Source: Microcaldota archaeon
Lineage (GTDB): Archaea; Micrarchaeota; Micrarchaeia; Anstonellales; Bilamarchaeaceae
DNA: 64,000 nucleotides
Assembly: GCA_016212525.1 (NCBI GenBank)
Contig: JACRGD010000007.1
Location: 220,778 to 284,777 of the forward strand
Direction of reading: 5' to 3'
In this document: positions 3,589-47,197 of the stretch, in pieces
How the letters are laid out: every line of letters starts with the position of its first letter
How positions within the stretch are numbered: the stretch's first letter is position 1
Made by a program: the position numbers and the translations under genes
The notes under the pieces: generated by a model
Databases searched by the model: none
What the model was told of the DNA's origin: nothing
The model's input: the letters and a program-made list of their open reading frames with translations, nothing else

Positions 3589-4923
3589 TTATTTTTGAGC
3601 TCCTGGTGGATTTCGTTTTAGGAATTCGCCCACAGCCACGAGGAACTCGTTTATCTTATCTTTTGGGATTCCAGCCCCGGCCGCGATCTTATGCCCGCCA
3701 CCAAAACCACCAACGGACCTAGAGGTCTCGCCAAGCAATGCCCCAAGATTAAGACCCTCATCAACAAGGTACCGTGGCGATCGGCCGGAGATTTTGATCG
3801 AACCATCCTCTGCAAGTGCAAGGCCGAAAATAGGTTTTGTCCAGTCCTGCCGCAGAACCATACCGCAAACGATTCCAACGATCCCTTCATCGACAATTCC
3901 ACGGGCATCAAGGAAGTAAAACGGCCCCAGATCCTGAACCTTTGTTGAAGCGTACATTATTCCCTCGCGCAGAGTCTTCTTATGATAAAGAAGCAACTCG
4001 TGAGCCAAAGGATAACTCGATTCATCTTTGAGGCAAACACGAACTCCCAGCTCGCCCTTGCCATGTCTGCCACAGGCATTAAGCAGAGTGCTAAAATCAT
4101 TAGCCTCATACGTCTCGTTTAGAGGATTGTTGGGAAACACATAATTTTCACCAATCAGAGGCTTTTTGCGAAGTTGAACCGGACTAAGCAAAGATTCGAT
4201 AGCAGAAACAAGGCGACGTTTATCATTCGATTCAAGACGACCATATGACAACGGAGCGCCGTCTTTCTCAAATGGAATATTTTGGCGCAGGAGGAATTCC
4301 CTTGCCTTCTCTTCTGAGTATGCCAAGCCGGGCAGGATCGGATCGTCCGCAAACGCAAGGAATTGTATCAGAGCCCGTGAATAGCGACCGTAGAATCGCA
4401 AGTCGTTTTCAATCTTAATCCGAGACTGGGCAATACCGTCAGAAAGGATTTTCCGATTGAACCCAACCAACGGGTGTTGCATATCGCCCACCGCGCCAAC
4501 GATGGCCAATTCGACATTTTGGCCAAAAACACAATATGCAACTCCAGCTGCACTAATCTCGAAACTGCCATCGATCCCGTGCAGGAGAGGATTGACCTGG
4601 AATTTTTCGACGCCCTGGATCTGGTGATGATCAATTACCAGAACATCCCGAAGCTCGTTGACACGTTTGTTGCCCGAGCCCAGATCGACAAAAATCACTT
4701 CCTTTTCACATAAGATCTGATCAATAACCTGATCATCGAGCTTTTTGACGCAGAGCGAGCGGGCTTTTTTGCCAACGGACTTTAGGGCGCCGATAGCGAT
4801 TGAGCCGGAACTAATCCCATCGGCATCGTAGTGATGGACAACTAAAGGATCAAAAAAAGAGTACGCAAGGCGCTTGCCTTCTTTGGCACTTTCCAAAAAT
4901 GCAGATTCATCACGTGCAATCAT
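3589..4923 (-). CDS. DHH/DHHA1 phosphoesterase, RecJ-like (archaeal RecJ/GAN group)
   Basis: The 444-residue protein has a DHH domain with HHYDADG (30-36), a further acidic strand IFVDLGSG (about 77-84) and the signature DHH at 98-100. The DHHA1 domain ends with GGGHKIAAGAG (408-418). These motifs bind two metal ions and cleave phosphodiester bonds. Archaeal members include RecJ-like nucleases that associate with GINS and the replisome, as well as RNA and nanoRNA exonucleases, so the exact substrate cannot be told from sequence. It faces no obvious partner: the upstream neighbour is a broken small gene and the downstream one an ORFan. The ATG at 4923 gives a sensible N terminus just before the first domain strand. 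Confidence 0.85.
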   Translation of the reverse strand: MIARDESAFLESAKEGKRLAYSFFDPLVVHHYDADGISSGSIAIGALKSVGKKARSLCVKKLDDQVIDQILCEKEVIFVDLGSGNKRVNELRDVLVIDHHQIQGVEKFQVNPLLHGIDGSFEISAAGVAYCVFGQNVELAIVGAVGDMQHPLVGFNRKILSDGIAQSRIKIENDLRFYGRYSRALIQFLAFADDPILPGLAYSEEKAREFLLRQNIPFEKDGAPLSYGRLESNDKRRLVSAIESLLSPVQLRKKPLIGENYVFPNNPLNETYEANDFSTLLNACGRHGKGELGVRVCLKDESSYPLAHELLLYHKKTLREGIMYASTKVQDLGPFYFLDARGIVDEGIVGIVCGMVLRQDWTKPIFGLALAEDGSIKISGRSPRYLVDEGLNLGALLGETSRSVGGFGGGHKIAAGAGIPKDKINEFLVAVGEFLKRNPPGAQK

Positions 4924-4990
4924 AATAAACTAGTTATTTAATAGAACAAAGAATTTATTTGACAATTGGAACTGAACTGAGAGAGTAGGA

Positions 4991-5299
4991 TCAGAACGAA
5001 TTATCCAGATCGAAATTAGATTGAATCAATTTGAGCAAATCGGAATCAGAAATCAGACGCGTTTTTATGATCCTAACCTTTTTTACAGAAGCAGAATAAT
5101 TACCAGTTATTTCGAAAACAACCATGCCAAAATTTCCCTTTTGATCGTTAATTAGCCTGAAGTAATAATTAACATAGGGCCAGAGATCAATTGCTTTAAA
5201 AAAAGCATATTTTCGGGTTTTGGATTTGATGGATTAGAAGCATAGAAAGCAGAGTAAGTATCTTCCAAAATTTTGAGTGAAAAGAGTGCCATCAGTCAT
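4991..5299 (-). pseudogene. Small frameshifted gene of unknown function
   Basis: Absent from the ORF track, but the minus strand shows coding-like sequence split over two frames. From the ATG at 5292 one frame reads MALFSLKILEDTYSAFYASNPS... and closes early. Another frame then reads YAFFKAIDLWPYVNYYF, continues through GNFGMVVFEITGNYSASVKKV, and stops at 4991. Joined by a single-base shift near the run CTTTTTTTAAAGC they give about 100 residues of ordinary amphipathic protein. The later frame also reaches back to an ATG at 5299, but that path is broken by one TAA. It is either a decaying gene or an indel in the assembly. No family is recognised. Without it the 420-bp gap would be unusually long for this compact genome. 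Confidence 0.45.
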
Positions 5300-5345
5300 A
5301 CATTGGAAAAGTAAGGATTAAAACAGAGTTCGTAGTTCTCTTTTT

Positions 5346-5876
5346 ATGGCACAGGAAATACTCGCAAACTTTGTTCTGGGTTTGGTAAGAATTCTAATTG
5401 CAATGGTTTTTTCGGCATTTACAATTTACTCTTCACTAAAGCTGTTCGACAGTCTCACAAAAGGAATTGAAGAATGGGAAGAGATAAAAAAAGGCAATCT
5501 CTCAGTAGGAGTTTTCTTTGTCGCAATAGTAGTATCCGTATTCATGATCATGCTTCCGCGTATAGACATGCTACTAGTACTGGTTGCAGATCAGTACACA
5601 AACGGAATCAGTGCAGCGGTGATTTTGTTTGTCGGATTATTAAATTTCCTGCTCACGCTAGGAATTTCAACCTTTTTGATTTTCATCTCTTTGACATTAG
5701 TTGATCGATTGACGCCAACGCTTGATGAACTTGCAGAACTCAAAAGAGGAAATGTTGCAGTTGGAATAGTTCTGGCAATTACTCTGGTGCTAATGACAAT
5801 TGCAATGAAAGATCAAGTACTCAATACATTTGATTTGTTTAGTCTGCTTGGCCCGATAATTAGAAACGTAGCATAA
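5346..5876 (+). CDS. DUF350 family membrane protein
   Basis: The 176-residue integral membrane protein is made of two related halves. Each has a hydrophobic helix followed by a conserved stretch: SLKLFDSLTKGIEEWEEIKKGNLSVGV in the first half and SLTLVDRLTPTLDELAELKRGNVAVGI in the second. This duplicated pattern, with KGN.[SA]VG leading into the next helix, is typical of DUF350 proteins, whose function is unknown. About four to five membrane helices are expected. A TATA-like attaaaac lies about 25 nt before the ATG, consistent with a leaderless single-gene transcript. Convergent with the repeat protein downstream. Confidence 0.8.
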   Translation: MAQEILANFVLGLVRILIAMVFSAFTIYSSLKLFDSLTKGIEEWEEIKKGNLSVGVFFVAIVVSVFMIMLPRIDMLLVLVADQYTNGISAAVILFVGLLNFLLTLGISTFLIFISLTLVDRLTPTLDELAELKRGNVAVGIVLAITLVLMTIAMKDQVLNTFDLFSLLGPIIRNVA

Positions 5877-5886
5877 CCAGGAAGTA

Positions 5887-7455
5887 CTAGATAGAAAGCC
5901 GGGCAGCGACAGAACGGGCATCTGATGCGTCAGCAGACATTTTTGTCGCATTTCCGCGATAGAACTGATAAAGACTGGCCAGACCAGATAGTTTGAAATC
6001 CAAAAGCACAAGATCAGAAACTTTCTTTGAACCATCAGGAAATGAATGAGAGAGCCATATGAGCGCACATCCGCGATTGACAGTATTTTTCCAAAAACCA
6101 TTGGCAAGTTTGTTAAGCTGCCATGGATAAATTTTTTGGCCATCGAATCGAGCGTTTCGGACCTGTATTAAAATTTCCCGGTGCGAATAGGCAAATCCGC
6201 AGCAAACTTCCACAAGGTATACTGAATTTCCTCCAGCAGCATAAAGACCACTAAGTCCAGTTTCCCTAAAATCAGCAGTAACGATTTCACATGGGTCTTT
6301 AGGAACACCATCCACACTGCGTTTATGAAGCATCCATTTGAATGCGACAGCTTTAGTCGAATCTGGATCCCAGAAATCGTTTCCTACATGCGAGTCTATT
6401 TCCCAAGGATATATTCGGTCATTCATAAACCGATTGTTTTGAGCGTGTTTAGCTGCATCATCAAGGGAGTATGCATATCCTGCGGCAACAAGAATCCGAT
6501 TTAGATTTCGATCATAGCGCTGCAAAAGCGGACCCAAACCCAACTCATCAAAATGGGCAGTGGTAATTTGAACGGGTTTGATTTGTTTAACCGTTAGAAT
6601 ATGGTCGACTGAATCTTTGCAAAATCTACGCTCCTTGAGATATGGTGCTCTTCTGCGAATTACTTCATCGACAGCCTCAGAAGGTTTTGGTTTTTTGATA
6701 TATCCATTTTTGTAGAGTGCCAGTACAAAAGAACCCTTGTATTTAGCTGCAACCATGCCCGCAAGACCATGAATTCGAAAGTCATCCTTGTCTAATTCAA
6801 CTGCAGACTTACCGGTTTTATACATAATCCATCCCAATGCAGCGCGGACCATCGCTCGATCATCCCAAAAAGAGTTGCTTACTTTAGTTAGTTCCCAGGG
6901 ATATGCTTTTTCATCCGAAAAAGTAGCAGCTTTGAAGTGTTTCTTTATATCAGAGCCAGAATAGGCAAAGCCTGCTTCAACAAGCGCACCATAAATCGAA
7001 CCGGCAGCTGCAACCATACCTTCCAAATGATTAGCCTCAACCGACTCAGTAGTTACCCTTCGAGGGTCATTTCCGTTTTCAGCAACCAGTCGAGTTACAA
7101 CTGCAACCAAAAGTGCGGGTTTCTTACCCCAGGCTATGCGTTCCTTAACTTCGATGCAACCGGAAGAAAGAAGAGCAGCCGGACCGACAGCTGGATCAGA
7201 AAATGATTTTCGCGCAGCGCTCCTTGCCCTTTTGATCCCACCACCCATACCAAGAATCGCAATGCCTTTAGGAGTTAAGCGATACTCACCGTGTGAAATC
7301 GCCAATGCAGAAACCCACGAACCTTTAGAGGCTGTATTGGCATCGATTAGAGGAAGGTTTGTCGGTTTTGGTTTGGAAATAGGAGTATCTATCGAAGGGA
7401 GTCCCCTGGAGTCTATTGCCTTACGAATAAAAGGATAATAAACAGTTGCTGCCAC
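5887..7455 (-). CDS. Novel protein with three W/F-Y-S repeat modules
   Basis: I do not recognise this soluble 522-residue protein. It contains internal repeats. Each module has [FY]AYS (163-166, 327-330, 421-424), then about 18 residues later YPW[EQ][LI] (185-189, 349-353, 443-447), then FW (197-198, 361-362, 454-455), then an Ala/Trp-rich helix, then DF...GL (about 225, 395, 486). The spacing between modules is about 164 and 94 residues, so the middle region probably holds a partly decayed copy. The first 130 residues are unrelated and include a Gly/Arg patch GMGGGIKRARSAARK that could bind nucleic acid. It starts with GTG. A TATA-like GAAAATAAAA lies about 29 nt upstream, so the transcript is close to leaderless. 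It may be a repeat-type binding protein, but no function is claimed. Confidence 0.65.
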   Translation of the reverse strand: MAATVYYPFIRKAIDSRGLPSIDTPISKPKPTNLPLIDANTASKGSWVSALAISHGEYRLTPKGIAILGMGGGIKRARSAARKSFSDPAVGPAALLSSGCIEVKERIAWGKKPALLVAVVTRLVAENGNDPRRVTTESVEANHLEGMVAAAGSIYGALVEAGFAYSGSDIKKHFKAATFSDEKAYPWELTKVSNSFWDDRAMVRAALGWIMYKTGKSAVELDKDDFRIHGLAGMVAAKYKGSFVLALYKNGYIKKPKPSEAVDEVIRRRAPYLKERRFCKDSVDHILTVKQIKPVQITTAHFDELGLGPLLQRYDRNLNRILVAAGYAYSLDDAAKHAQNNRFMNDRIYPWEIDSHVGNDFWDPDSTKAVAFKWMLHKRSVDGVPKDPCEIVTADFRETGLSGLYAAGGNSVYLVEVCCGFAYSHREILIQVRNARFDGQKIYPWQLNKLANGFWKNTVNRGCALIWLSHSFPDGSKKVSDLVLLDFKLSGLASLYQFYRGNATKMSADASDARSVAARLSI

Positions 7456-40439: not shown

Positions 40440-40564
40440 GAGAATTTCTCAGAATGAAAATATATAAATGAACGGGTTTGGATTACAAAGAAGCATATCG
40501 GCGGATGTCGAATCGCAATCCGAATGCTTTAATAAGACATTTTGACAAGCAACAATTGATAATC

Positions 40565-40966
40565 ATGAGACAATCCATTCCATTAACCTGGAGACGAATT
40601 CCTGAACGATACAGAATACTTGGAGTCAAGTGCGACACCTGCAAGACAACGTACTTCCCAAAGAGAAATGTTTGCCCGACCTGTCGAAGAAAGGGAAAAT
40701 TAAATGAGATCAAATTCGCAGGAAAGGGAAAGGTCATATCATTTACAGAAGTTTCTGCACCGCCAGAAGGATTTGAAGATCAGACACCATATGTTTTGGC
40801 AATAATCGAACTGGACGAGGGGGCACGACTTACAGCACAGATCGTAGATGCCCGTGGAACTGACGTGAAGATAGGCTCGAAAGTTGAGAAGGTCTTTAGA
40901 AAGATTCAGAGTGAAGATCCAGAAGGACTCATTCACTACGGATTTAAGTTCAAACTTGTTGGCTAG
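40565..40966 (+). CDS. DUF35 zinc-ribbon/OB-fold protein
   Basis: The N-terminal rubredoxin-like zinc ribbon is CDTCKTTYFPKRNVCPTCR, preceded by PLTWRRIPERYRILG. The OB fold follows (GKVISFTEVSAPPEGFEDQTPYVLAIIELDEGARL). DUF35 proteins bridge thiolase and HMG-CoA synthase in archaea and channel acetoacetyl-CoA between them. I start at ATG 40565, since the family begins just before PLTWR. TTG 40478 and ATG 40505 give longer N termini, and a TATA box (tatataaa, 40461-40468) fits an ATG 40505 start with a short leader. HMG-CoA synthase lies at 18.6 kb and no thiolase is seen, so the complex would be assembled in trans. Confidence 0.85.
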   Translation: MRQSIPLTWRRIPERYRILGVKCDTCKTTYFPKRNVCPTCRRKGKLNEIKFAGKGKVISFTEVSAPPEGFEDQTPYVLAIIELDEGARLTAQIVDARGTDVKIGSKVEKVFRKIQSEDPEGLIHYGFKFKLVG

Positions 40967-41042: not shown

Positions 41043-42023
41043 TCATGTTGCTCTCTCAAACCGGGCACAAACGGCAAAGGGTTTTTCAACTCCCTCGGAC
41101 ATTTTACCATAATCAAAACCAGAAGTTAGAACAAAACGTTTATCTACAAAAGAAACAAGGTCTCGATACTCAAGAATCTTTGGTCTGCGCTCTAGTACGG
41201 GTGCCGCGGCCTCACTAGTCAAAACAAATTGCCTCAGAAGATCTTCAAGGTAGTTAATTGCAAACGGCCTCGATAGTTCACCTGCTGCAGATCTTTGCAA
41301 GAACATTACGGCCAAATGTGCATTTGATCTTCTGCTCCCGTCAGGCACTATTTCATTAGTCCCATTAGAACAGACCACTCTAGGATCATAATTCGGACGT
41401 TTGTTTGGATTATCATATATTCGTACTATTCCTTTATCTAAACGCTCTGCTGCCTCGAGCAAATTTCCAGCATCTTCTGCACTAAGGTTCTTTAGTATGT
41501 CAATAATTAGTTCTATCATTTCTCCGCATCTTGCAAGGTCTACGACAATTGGTGAGTGATTAGAGTGGCAAATCAGAAGAATCTCTTCTCCAGGTAAAAG
41601 TTGATTGGCTGCTTGTGCGGTGGACCTGCCAATATCAGTGTATTCTATTGAAAATGGATAAATGAGCATTGTCCTACCATTATTCCTATCAAATAACCCT
41701 CCCGGAAGGGACTCTTCCATATCGCCTTGAAAAAAAGGGCAAAATACTTCAAACTCTCCCATTTCTCTTATATCAAGTACGCTCGCAGTTAGACCCACTC
41801 TAAAAAGATGAGATCTTAATGCCCCTCTAAATCCCCCTACGATTCCTACGTGTCCGACAGAAGCCGAAATGAGACCCTTCACTTTTTCCATCAGAACCGG
41901 GTGAGCCGAATAGGGAAAAACTGAATCTGCTCCTTCAAGAGGGAGAAGCTGCCAGGCTGCCTTAGCGCTTGCGGGCAACGGGGGTTTTGAGTTTCTCGAA
42001 TGAATTGTGTGAACTAAAGACAT
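41043..42023 (-). CDS. SAM-dependent methyltransferase-like protein
   Basis: The 326-residue soluble protein has a layout resembling a class I methyltransferase. A glycine loop after a strand, VGHVGIVGGFRG, stands where motif I is expected. ASVLDIREMG puts an Asp at the end of the next strand. QGDMEESLPGGLFD then compares with the GD-x-E-x-L-P...FD signature. LIYPFSIEYTDIGRSTAQAANQLLPGEEILLICHSNHSPIV follows, like the L-x-P-G-G-x-L-x-x-x-x-H region. The glycine loop is degenerate (GGFRG), so SAM binding is unproven. It is next to the Nudix-like/toxin cassette, separated by 76 bp with a 7-bp inverted repeat. The target is unknown. Confidence 0.5.
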   Translation of the reverse strand: MSLVHTIHSRNSKPPLPASAKAAWQLLPLEGADSVFPYSAHPVLMEKVKGLISASVGHVGIVGGFRGALRSHLFRVGLTASVLDIREMGEFEVFCPFFQGDMEESLPGGLFDRNNGRTMLIYPFSIEYTDIGRSTAQAANQLLPGEEILLICHSNHSPIVVDLARCGEMIELIIDILKNLSAEDAGNLLEAAERLDKGIVRIYDNPNKRPNYDPRVVCSNGTNEIVPDGSRRSNAHLAVMFLQRSAAGELSRPFAINYLEDLLRQFVLTSEAAAPVLERRPKILEYRDLVSFVDKRFVLTSGFDYGKMSEGVEKPFAVCARFERAT

Positions 42024-42099: not shown

Positions 42100-42468
42100 T
42101 CAAATCTTCTTTTCTTTTACCCATTCAAAACTTTCAAAACCCTTAGCGAGAAATATTTTTTCTTCTTTTATTTTTATCTCAAATTCGTAAACTGGGAGCA
42201 TCAATTCTTCTTCGTTCCAGACTATCAAGCGAGTACCCGTCTCGCGGGTGGTCAAAACGTCTCCAGAAAGTCCAGTCTGTGCGTGCAAACCACTAAGAAT
42301 TTGATTTATCGGCTCGCTCCGATTGCTCGGAAGGACAAATGGCAGATCACAAACGAGTTTGGAGGAAACTTTCCTGCATAGCGTCAGGATCTTTCCATCT
42401 TTATTAGTAACCTTGGCAACAAGAACGGCCCTGGGTCGATTGCTCGTATACCATTGATCGCGATCCAT
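42100..42468 (-). CDS. Nudix-fold protein lacking the Nudix box (second of pair)
   Basis: The protein of about 122 residues starts MDRDQWYTSN. AGGTG just upstream of the ATG at 42468 acts as ribosome-binding site; the track GTG at 42477 is part of that motif. The fold is Nudix-like: AVLVAKVTNKDGKILTLCRK, then LPFVLPSNRSEPINQILSGLHAQTGLSG where the Nudix helix should be, then FESFEWVKE. The expected R-E-x-x-E-E is absent, so hydrolysis is unlikely and it may sense or bind a nucleotide. It aligns with the gene before it and probably arose by duplication. Confidence 0.6.
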   Translation of the reverse strand: MDRDQWYTSNRPRAVLVAKVTNKDGKILTLCRKVSSKLVCDLPFVLPSNRSEPINQILSGLHAQTGLSGDVLTTRETGTRLIVWNEEELMLPVYEFEIKIKEEKIFLAKGFESFEWVKEKKI

Positions 42469-42477
42469 AATGAGCAC

Positions 42478-42915
42478 CTATTTTTTTACATAAGGAGGCG
42501 GAGCTGGTCGAATTAACCATTCGCAGTTTTTAGTTAGCTTTTCCCGCTTTGCATCATCGAGAGTTAACCACTTGAATCCGGCAAATTCAGGCGCGGGCTT
42601 TGCAAAGCGCTCGCGTGCTGTGATCTTAAAGACAAGAACCGGCACAAATGCCTTACGTCTTTTTGTCCCGACATTATAGCGGGACTCGTAAATAGGCTCG
42701 TGAACTTGGGCATCGATTCCGGTTTGTCTAACAAACTCACTAGAGATTTCTGCAAAAGGACTTCGACCAGATGGAACCAAAATACAGGGTAACTCAAGAC
42801 GCTCGAATCCCATATGATCTCGACGAATGAGAAAGAGATAACGATTTCCATCTTCCAGTGCTCCGACGGCAAGGGCCTTTGGAACTGCAGTAAAAGTTGG
42901 AACTCGGCGTCTCAT
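42478..42915 (-). CDS. Nudix-fold protein lacking the Nudix box (first of pair)
   Basis: The real start is ATG 42915 (MRRRVPTF). GGGAGGT lies 6 nt before it, and the nine extra residues in the track are non-coding. The protein of about 145 residues follows the Nudix fold: KALAVGALEDGNRYLFLIRRDH, ELPCILVPSGRSPFAEISSEFVRQTGIDA, and FAGFKWLTLDDAKRE at the usual C-terminal position. The helix corresponding to the Nudix box keeps only a Glu/Arg and the closing TGI. It is downstream of the RelE toxin by 31 nt and 9 nt upstream of its paralogue. Confidence 0.6.
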   Translation of the reverse strand: MRRRVPTFTAVPKALAVGALEDGNRYLFLIRRDHMGFERLELPCILVPSGRSPFAEISSEFVRQTGIDAQVHEPIYESRYNVGTKRRKAFVPVLVFKITARERFAKPAPEFAGFKWLTLDDAKREKLTKNCEWLIRPAPPPYVKK

Positions 42916-42946
42916 ATTCTTACCTCCCAAAGAGAAAAACAATCAG

Positions 42947-43228
42947 CTAATCGAGCCATTTGTATCCCTTGCTCCGATGGAGAATTGAAGTTATTTTCAC
43001 CTCAGATGTCCCTATATGATAAATGGCACGGTAATCACCCACCCTTACACGATAAAGAGGCGGATCGAAACTACCTTCGAGTTTCTTTATATCCGCACCA
43101 CTTCTCGATTGATAGGGATCTTTAGTTAACTGCTCAAATGCATTCTTGAATCGCTTCTGAGTTTGGTTATCCAGATTGTAGAAGTCTTTTCGTGCAGACT
43201 CGGAAATAAGTATAGACCAGAGAGTCAT
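42947..43228 (-). CDS. RelE/ParE-family toxin
   Basis: The 93-residue protein shows the RelE fold: ISESARKDFYNLDNQTQKRFKNAFEQL, then KLEGSFDPPLYRVRVGDYRAIYHI and ILHRSKGY. The core R-V-x-V-G-D-Y-R-x-I-Y and the terminal H-R-x-x-x-Y carry the residues that in related toxins contact and cleave mRNA on the ribosome. Its ATG overlaps the antitoxin stop by 4 nt (ATGA), giving coupled translation. Two Nudix-like genes follow closely. Confidence 0.88.
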   Translation of the reverse strand: MTLWSILISESARKDFYNLDNQTQKRFKNAFEQLTKDPYQSRSGADIKKLEGSFDPPLYRVRVGDYRAIYHIGTSEVKITSILHRSKGYKWLD

Positions 43229-43407
43229 AAGGTGTCAACAGAGTGAAATTTTTCATTCTGTAAAATCCATTTTTGTTGTTCTAAAAATCCATGATAACGA
43301 GCGATCTCCATCAGGTTCTTCAGTATATCTTCATAGGTAGAACCTTTGGTTCCAAACTGCTTGAGCAGTTCGCGCGTCTCAGAGGTTATGGAAATAGTAG
43401 TATTCAT
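43225..43407 (-). CDS. Antitoxin, RHH/DUF7557-like
   Basis: The 60-residue protein begins MNTTISITSETRELLKQFGTKGSTYEDILKNLME, a strand followed by two helices as in ribbon-helix-helix or VapB/DUF7557-type antitoxins. The C-terminal tail (about 38-60) would bind the toxin. It is first in the cassette. Its promoter holds three near-identical 10-bp repeats, consistent with cooperative antitoxin binding and autoregulation. Confidence 0.75.
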   Translation of the reverse strand: MNTTISITSETRELLKQFGTKGSTYEDILKNLMEIARYHGFLEQQKWILQNEKFHSVDTL

Positions 43408-43434
43408 ATAATCACATATAATAGAATATAATAG
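43405..43434 (-). promoter_or_regulatory. Three tandem 10-bp repeats at the antitoxin promoter
   Basis: On the plus strand the repeats are catataatca, catataatag and aatataatag (43405-43414, 43415-43424, 43425-43434). The period of exactly 10 bp puts each copy on the same DNA face. They cover the start codon (43407) and the AT-rich core promoter. This arrangement is typical of operators bound by ribbon-helix-helix antitoxins. Confidence 0.6.
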
Positions 43435-43460: not shown

Positions 43461-43880
43461 TTAAGACAATTTTCTTAGAGCTTCCAACGCAGCATCTTTC
43501 TTTTCAAAAGGAACAAACAAATGATCGTGAAAATATCCGCTAAAGGCATTAACAACGATTTCCTTTGCTGCAAGTGCACCCGTAACTTTGGAAAAAAGAC
43601 CGACAGACATCATATCTGAATTCACATTAAGAGTTAGTTTGGCAAATGGACCTGCAACCTGCTTGAGCGAATATGGCTCGACAATCGATTTAAGTGGTTC
43701 ATAAAAAACAATTGTCATGCCCTCATTTTCTCTAAACACACAGACAATATATTGCATATAGTTGGCAAGAGTAAAGAGTGCATCCTGATTCACAGTTGCA
43801 AAATAATACTTCTGCGAATCGAGCTTGGGATCGAGATTTTTCAGGATTTCAGAAAGATTTGAAACGGGCATAGGAAACAT
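43461..43880 (-). CDS. ACT-domain protein
   Basis: The 139-residue protein appears to contain two ACT-like halves. The first has YYFATVNQDALFTLANYMQYIVCVFRENEGMTIVF. The second has FAKLTLNVNSDMMSVGLFSKVTGALAAKEIVVNAFSGYFHDHLFVPFEK, with the G-L-x-x-K/R-V-x-x-A-L-x-x-x-x-I-x-V pattern of ACT domains. This layout resembles small stand-alone ACT proteins thought to sense amino acids. It ends 53 nt from the antitoxin start and begins 12 nt after the polB stop, so it is probably co-transcribed with polB. ATG 43871 is an alternative start. Confidence 0.75.
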   Translation of the reverse strand: MFPMPVSNLSEILKNLDPKLDSQKYYFATVNQDALFTLANYMQYIVCVFRENEGMTIVFYEPLKSIVEPYSLKQVAGPFAKLTLNVNSDMMSVGLFSKVTGALAAKEIVVNAFSGYFHDHLFVPFEKKDAALEALRKLS

Positions 43881-46348: not shown

Positions 46349-47197
46349 TCAAAACGAATTCGAAATTACAGCATCCCGATAGTGCAAACCTGGAGAAAGA
46401 TATGTTTCCACACGCTCCTCAAAAAACGGAGGGGGGATCAGGTGCACATTTGAAAAAGCACTACGGGCATTTGCCCAAACATGCGGCTCAAAAATAGAAA
46501 TAAGAGACTCCAAAAGAGACCGATCGAGAGAGATGACCCCTGCCAAGACAGCAGATTCCAAAAGAGCAAGTGACTGAGAAGTGAACGAAAAACATGATGG
46601 GTCATCAGAACCAGGCCAATTTCCTAGAACCTCGACATGACGATCCAGAGCAGCTAGATAGGACCCGGATACGATCAGATGATTGAATGGTTTGAATTGA
46701 TAGTTTAACAAAGCACGAACCAGATCATATGGAGAATAAATTGTATCACAAAATTCAGCAACACGGCAAGTTTCGTTGACGATAGCAAGTGCAGAAGGAG
46801 CTAAAGTAGGAGATAAGTAATCATCAGAGAAAAGTGAATCAAAGCGCCGTTGCTGGTCGGGTGAAAGCGAGGCACCAGAAAAAAAGAAGCGCCATGCATC
46901 GGGAATGGCACCAGTCCGAAAGTAAAAATCAAGACAGGTAAGAAGGTGAGAAAATACATCTTCTGGAAGCTTGCGCTTTAATCTAAGGGCATATGCAATA
47001 GTCGTAGGATTGCCAAAAGAAGCAAGACGAAAGAATGAAAGCCGATCCAGAGGCGAAACTAAAACTCCAGAGCCCGAACCAAGAGTAGAGAGGTCGAGCT
47101 GGGGATTGTAACGAGCAGTTCCCCTAAAGAGACATTTAGTCTCGCGTACCCTTGACACAAACTGATAGAGTTCAGGTTTGGTAGCAAGAAAAGACAT
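46349..47197 (-). CDS. Unknown 282-residue protein
   Basis: I do not recognise it. It is soluble, mainly helical, and rich in Leu, Phe, Ser and Pro, for example ALRLKRKLPEDVFSHLLTCLDFYFRTGAIPDAWRFFF and LLESAVLAGVISLDRSLLESLISIFEPHVW. There are a few isolated Cys and no metal-binding cluster. A TATA-like TTTATTAATG sits about 29 nt before the ATG at 47197, so the gene is a separate transcription unit. It is one of six ORFans on this strand. Confidence 0.55.
   Translation of the reverse strand: MSFLATKPELYQFVSRVRETKCLFRGTARYNPQLDLSTLGSGSGVLVSPLDRLSFFRLASFGNPTTIAYALRLKRKLPEDVFSHLLTCLDFYFRTGAIPDAWRFFFSGASLSPDQQRRFDSLFSDDYLSPTLAPSALAIVNETCRVAEFCDTIYSPYDLVRALLNYQFKPFNHLIVSGSYLAALDRHVEVLGNWPGSDDPSCFSFTSQSLALLESAVLAGVISLDRSLLESLISIFEPHVWANARSAFSNVHLIPPPFFEERVETYLSPGLHYRDAVISNSF

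Follow-up and report, generated by a model that had tools for sequence, protein, structure and literature searches.

Organization of the locus

The window analyzed here, a stretch of 64,000 nucleotides, comes from contig C5 of a Ca. Micrarchaeota genome (G000; 1.47 Mb, 89.6% complete) and carries a run of four genes on its minus strand. They are arranged in the order antitoxin (60 aa), RelE/ParE toxin (93 aa; RelE hereafter), NudA (145 aa) and NudB (122 aa), the last two being our names for a pair of Nudix-like proteins (Table 1). The antitoxin and RelE reading frames overlap by 4 nt (ATGA), 31 nt separate RelE from NudA, and 9 nt lie between NudA and NudB. This gene order, the three junctions and the GGGAGGT and AGGTG ribosome-binding sites had been described in an initial annotation of the DNA, and all of them were borne out when we re-read the sequence. 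Translation of NudA and NudB starts at ATG codons (42915 and 42468, respectively), and the TTG and GTG starts given in the list of open reading frames are upstream artefacts. The short spacing of the four genes suggests that they are co-transcribed here; it speaks for co-transcription and not for a common function.

Table 1. Features of the four-gene run and its conserved neighbor (positions are those of the window)
Feature	Position	Strand	Basis or remark
Antitoxin, 60 aa	43225..43407	-	Weak DUF7557 likeness, E 3.3e-4 (below curated cut-off); conserved RelE partner in five other genomes
RelE/ParE-family toxin, 93 aa	42947..43228	-	Pfam ParE_toxin 2.6e-11; PHROG RelE-like toxin 5.1e-14
GGGAGGT ribosome-binding site of NudA	42922..42928	-	Sequence
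NudA, 145 aa, Nudix-fold, putatively non-catalytic, micrarchaeal family	42478..42915	-	AlphaFold, Foldseek, relatives
Degenerate Nudix box of NudA, residues 45-67	42715..42783	-	SSEFVRQTGI replaces ..REUxEExGU
NudA family signature hairpin, residues 81-88, NVGTKRRK	42652..42675	-	Family consensus NAGSRKRK
AGGTG ribosome-binding site of NudB	42475..42479	-	Overlaps NudA stop codon
NudB, 122 aa, divergent paralogue	42100..42468	-	C-terminal helix and basic hairpin missing
Degenerate Nudix box of NudB, residues 45-67	42268..42336	-	Residue alignment
ChsH2-type zinc-ribbon/OB-fold gene (DUF35 family)	40478..40966	+	Pfam OB_ChsH2_C 3.2e-19; synteny

Three further minus-strand genes flank the run. 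A 326-aa gene (41043-42023) has no sequence match in Pfam, NCBIfam or the PDB; two more paralogues of it are present in its own genome, and relatives occur in five other genomes of the taxonomic family. On the other side lie a 139-aa protein with two ACT-type domains (43461-43880), which is found at other places in most genomes of the genus, and a 282-aa gene upstream of PolB (46349-47197) that has neither a Pfam match nor a significant match in NCBIfam.

An ordinary toxin-antitoxin pair

RelE matched the Pfam ParE_toxin family (PF05016) with 44.4 bits, well above the curated cut-off of 23, and also matched the PHROG profile for RelE-like toxins. Its antitoxin lies directly upstream, and the pair is kept in five other genomes, with a RelE identity of 54-62% in four of these nearest pairs and of 41% in the fifth. 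By these sequence features, the two genes constitute an ordinary type II toxin-antitoxin pair. They share with other RelE/ParE systems the small ParE_toxin-family toxin, the small antitoxin upstream of it and the 4-nt overlap, and differ from them solely in that unrelated Nudix genes follow. As in other RelE pairs, the toxin would cleave mRNA at the ribosome, and the antitoxin would bind both the toxin and its own operator. When the surroundings of the pair were inspected for marks of mobile insertion, the flanking repeats proved to be short and chance-like, and no clear terminal repeats were found.

NudA and NudB possess a Nudix fold

AlphaFold modeled NudA and NudB with pLDDT values of 90.9 and 86.6, respectively, and the top matches listed in Foldseek searches of the PDB were Nudix or MutT-type structures for both proteins, with best E-values of 3.7e-8 (NudA) and 2.3e-6 (NudB). 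Both models thus display the alpha/beta/alpha Nudix fold that the initial annotation had proposed. In sequence searches, the Pfam NUDIX profile matched NudA below threshold (E 0.11) and gave no match with NudB; it recognized 19 of 24 NudA-family members, with a best E-value of 1.8e-6. The family profile of NudA, compared with solved structures, matched the Nudix chain 3ees (E 3.8e-4). The two proteins also align with each other, as noted previously: their Smith-Waterman score of 68 was reached by none of 2000 shuffles (26.8 +/- 4.5), and NudB matched the NudA-family profile with 34.6 bits.

Loss of the enzyme site

Nudix hydrolases carry the motif GX5EX7REUXEEXGU with its metal-binding glutamates, and neither NudA nor NudB has it. 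At the positions of its R, E, E and E residues, NudA possesses S, E, R and Q, and NudB S, G, A and Q, so that our residue alignment confirmed the reported absence of R-E-x-x-E-E from both proteins. This loss extends well beyond the window. Among 50 NudA-family members, the arginine is present in 1, the following glutamates in 11 and 14, and the last glutamate in none; the full R-E-x-x-E-E was found in 0/50 of them, compared with 9/9 canonical micrarchaeal Nudix proteins that had turned up in the same searches. As read from these alignments, the Nudix enzyme site has been lost across the whole family, and the lost box residues make it most likely that its members are catalytically inactive.

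Small Nudix hydrolases (MutT, Ap4A hydrolase, BdRppH) resemble NudA in their fold, the closest being 3ees by profile and 3i7u and 5zro by structure, but they differ from it in that NudA lacks the Nudix box and has its conserved sites elsewhere. An atypical hydrolase that binds its metal through other residues (e.g., D22, D68, H72, E73) would be compatible with the conservation of D22 (49/50) and D68 (48/50) and with the observation that position 64 is mostly occupied by Gln (34/50) and does not drift freely. However, the glutamates of the metal-binding helix are dispensable in the family, the last one being absent from all 50 members, and the invariant pattern has moved away from the box, into a basic hairpin; we consider such an enzyme unlikely.

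A conserved micrarchaeal family with a basic hairpin

Near-invariant positions of the 50 NudA-family members comprise D22 and R25 (49/50 each), F28 (50/50), N81 (49/50), G83 (50/50), W116 (50/50) and W133 (49/50). Positions 85, 86, 88 and 129 are occupied by Arg or Lys in every member, which yields the hairpin pattern R/K85-R/K86-x-R/K88; in the AlphaFold model of NudA, this basic stretch forms the loop between the strands 69-81 and 90-100. Except for W116 and the basic residue at position 85, the canonical micrarchaeal Nudix proteins do not possess the pattern. The median pI of the family is 10.1 (range 8.8-11.0), as compared to values of 5.2-9.7 in the canonical set.

A profile scan of 301 Micrarchaeota genomes detected the family in 56 of them at E <= 6.3e-33; these represent 22 genera and include 15 of the 17 genomes of the genus to which the host belongs. 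A clear gap in E-values follows, the next first matches lying at 7e-13 and above and probably representing ordinary Nudix proteins. A pattern scan of limited sensitivity through a collection of genomes from 84,980 species, seeded with a closer set of relatives (A2) and not with the deep alignment (A1), retrieved 17 relatives, all of them archaeal, so that the family may range more widely than these. The named relatives that carry the gene are bins labeled Candidatus Micrarchaeota, 'Candidatus ainarchaeum' or archaeon. Neither Pfam nor NCBIfam has a name for the family, and the literature collection that we searched contained no account of a comparable Nudix family in Micrarchaeota. We also considered whether the Nudix genes derive from a virus or phage and rejected this, as NudA had no match among phage records and PHROG gave only a noise-level match. 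The NudA family is real and conserved, and has no name in the libraries searched; its function we infer from the features described above.

Since NudA is 63% identical to its best match within the genus and most family-invariant sites are kept across many genera, the protein is under purifying selection. Its conserved, positively charged surface reflects this selection and not decay. This surface leads us to regard RNA, or a polyphosphate or nucleotide, as the most likely ligand of NudA, although proteins or small ligands could also be the targets of such a basic hairpin.

NudB is a divergent paralogue

NudB lacks the hairpin signature and ends before the C-terminal helix of the family. Its branch in the tree is very long (4.47 changes per column), and a search of 146 related genomes yielded no orthologue: every match was a NudA-family gene or a tandem copy thereof. 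A frameshift at the C-terminus does not account for the shortened protein, because the EWL helix of the family is not continued in any downstream frame. Nor could NudB be equated with the second tandem copies present upstream of NudA in three other genomes (G007, G009, G010), which form a supported clade of their own (99/99) without NudB, whose branch is too long for its placement to be trusted. Since these second copies form their own clade, the NudA-family gene seems to have been duplicated more than once. The tandem pairs are located at 564-1418 (L084), 4551-5432 (L085) and 5992-6752 (L095) of their respective loci, and their second copies have partly lost the basic hairpin.

NudB is a very divergent, C-terminally shortened paralogue of NudA that is seen only in this genome, where it may either pair with NudA as a subunit or be a copy in decay. 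That both proteins are functionless, decaying copies of a Nudix hydrolase would fit the very long branch of NudB, its missing C-terminal helix and its lack of the family signature, but it is hard to reconcile with the purifying selection acting on NudA; we judge this improbable for the pair, and such decay can hold for NudB alone. Since NudB has retained an open reading frame and a ribosome-binding site despite its lost signature, it may have a role that lies outside our main explanation.

Gene order in relatives separates the Nudix genes from the toxin

In the genus, the NudA gene is convergent with a ChsH2-type gene and mostly lies downstream of a gene for a Trp/Tyr-type tRNA synthetase. The window keeps the ChsH2-type neighbor, with NudB and the 326-aa gene standing between it and NudA. 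The synthetase gene of the host is located about 82 kb from NudA, and in the flanks examined no relative has the upstream ACT-domain and PolB genes next to one another. Gene order has therefore been rearranged on both sides of NudA. At L119 and L124, two loci from another family of the order, the gene downstream of and convergent with the Nudix gene belongs to an unnamed cluster (c9); members of this cluster follow the Nudix gene in several loci of the genus, and one of them has no Pfam match.

The initial annotation had proposed that the four genes act as one unit, in which NudA and NudB sense a nucleotide signal (e.g., ADP-ribose) and modulate RelE, or contribute to a defense-type module together with a downstream 'methyltransferase-like' gene. 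The tight, co-directional spacing and the good ribosome-binding sites would agree with this, as would the ability of degenerate Nudix domains to sense ADP-ribose, which is described for NrtR (PMC10311068), the protein that the annotation had named as an example of nucleotide binding by such domains. However, when 50 NudA-family loci were searched with RelE and antitoxin profiles, the pair was found only in the window and at 0/49 other loci. Conversely, the five nearest toxin pairs elsewhere (0/5) had no Nudix-family gene in the flanks examined, one of these contigs being only 5.4 kb long. The four-gene block is hence not a conserved gene order among the 49 Nudix loci and the five toxin-pair loci compared, all from fragmented metagenome bins. 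In relatives, the Nudix-like genes are essentially never near RelE, an outcome that the annotation itself had named as speaking against its proposal. The one exception is a weak RelE-like open reading frame in genome G032 (L121, 9473-9742, minus strand; E 0.0013), which has no antitoxin match and is separated by about 3 kb from a gene of the NudA family.

NudA, moreover, sits at the usual locus of its family, and no NrtR-like DNA-binding domain is visible in either Nudix protein. NrtR shares a Nudix-like domain with them, which it uses for ligand sensing, and carries in addition a fused C-terminal HTH-like DNA-binding domain (PMC10311068), whereas the models of NudA and NudB show nothing beyond the Nudix domain, so that neither protein qualifies as an NrtR-type regulator. 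The defense module fared no better: PADLOC models gave noise-level scores only with the five proteins compared, and the downstream 'methyltransferase-like' gene, for which neither Pfam nor a sequence search of the PDB gave a match, shows no linkage to NudA in relatives. We therefore rejected a functional toxin-Nudix unit on synteny and regard it as highly improbable; a functional coupling may have evolved in this species alone, for which the absence of linkage in relatives leaves room. Of what was proposed at the outset, the gene calls stand, as do the Nudix fold and the missing box; the functional unit with RelE does not. As judged from these comparisons, the neighborhood of the toxin pair and the Nudix genes is accidental. 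Since no other NudA-family locus has the pair and the nearest pairs elsewhere are without a Nudix-family gene, the toxin pair is most likely a local arrival at the NudA locus.

Two probably independent systems and a possible RNA-binding Nudix family

Taken together, our data make it likely that this locus juxtaposes two independent systems, an ordinary toxin pair and a member of a non-catalytic Nudix family whose probable ligands are RNA or nucleotides. NudA would hydrolyze nothing; like CFIm25 and other non-catalytic Nudix proteins, it would be a binding protein, holding RNA or a polyphosphorylated nucleotide by its invariant basic beta-hairpin, and NudB would be a fast-diverging paralogue serving as its partner subunit or undergoing decay. 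CFIm25 of human and of Entamoeba, in which several of the glutamates are missing, has kept the Nudix fold and is an RNA-binding protein (PMC3695940). CFIm25 (NUDT21), a subunit of cleavage factor Im, resembles NudA in its fold and in the loss of catalytic glutamates. It differs in being eukaryotic, in possessing an N-terminal extension and in binding RNA during 3' processing, whereas NudA is short and archaeal, and has an invariant basic hairpin, with RNA binding predicted from its basic charge and conservation. More tentatively, the NudA family could represent a new class of non-catalytic Nudix proteins from archaea that bind structured RNA (rRNA, tRNA, capped mRNA ends) via this hairpin, a counterpart of CFIm25 and possibly a lineage-specific ribosome-associated or RNA-processing factor.

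The toxin part of our findings is ordinary, and the locus illustrates that operon-like spacing in small archaeal genomes can put unrelated genes together. In the NudA family, which is conserved in part of a phylum of uncultured archaea, the Nudix fold is without its enzyme site and bears a basic surface that is new and strictly conserved. If NudA does bind RNA, the Nudix fold would have been recruited as a non-enzymatic RNA binder also in archaea with small genomes, as it has been in eukaryotic CFIm25.
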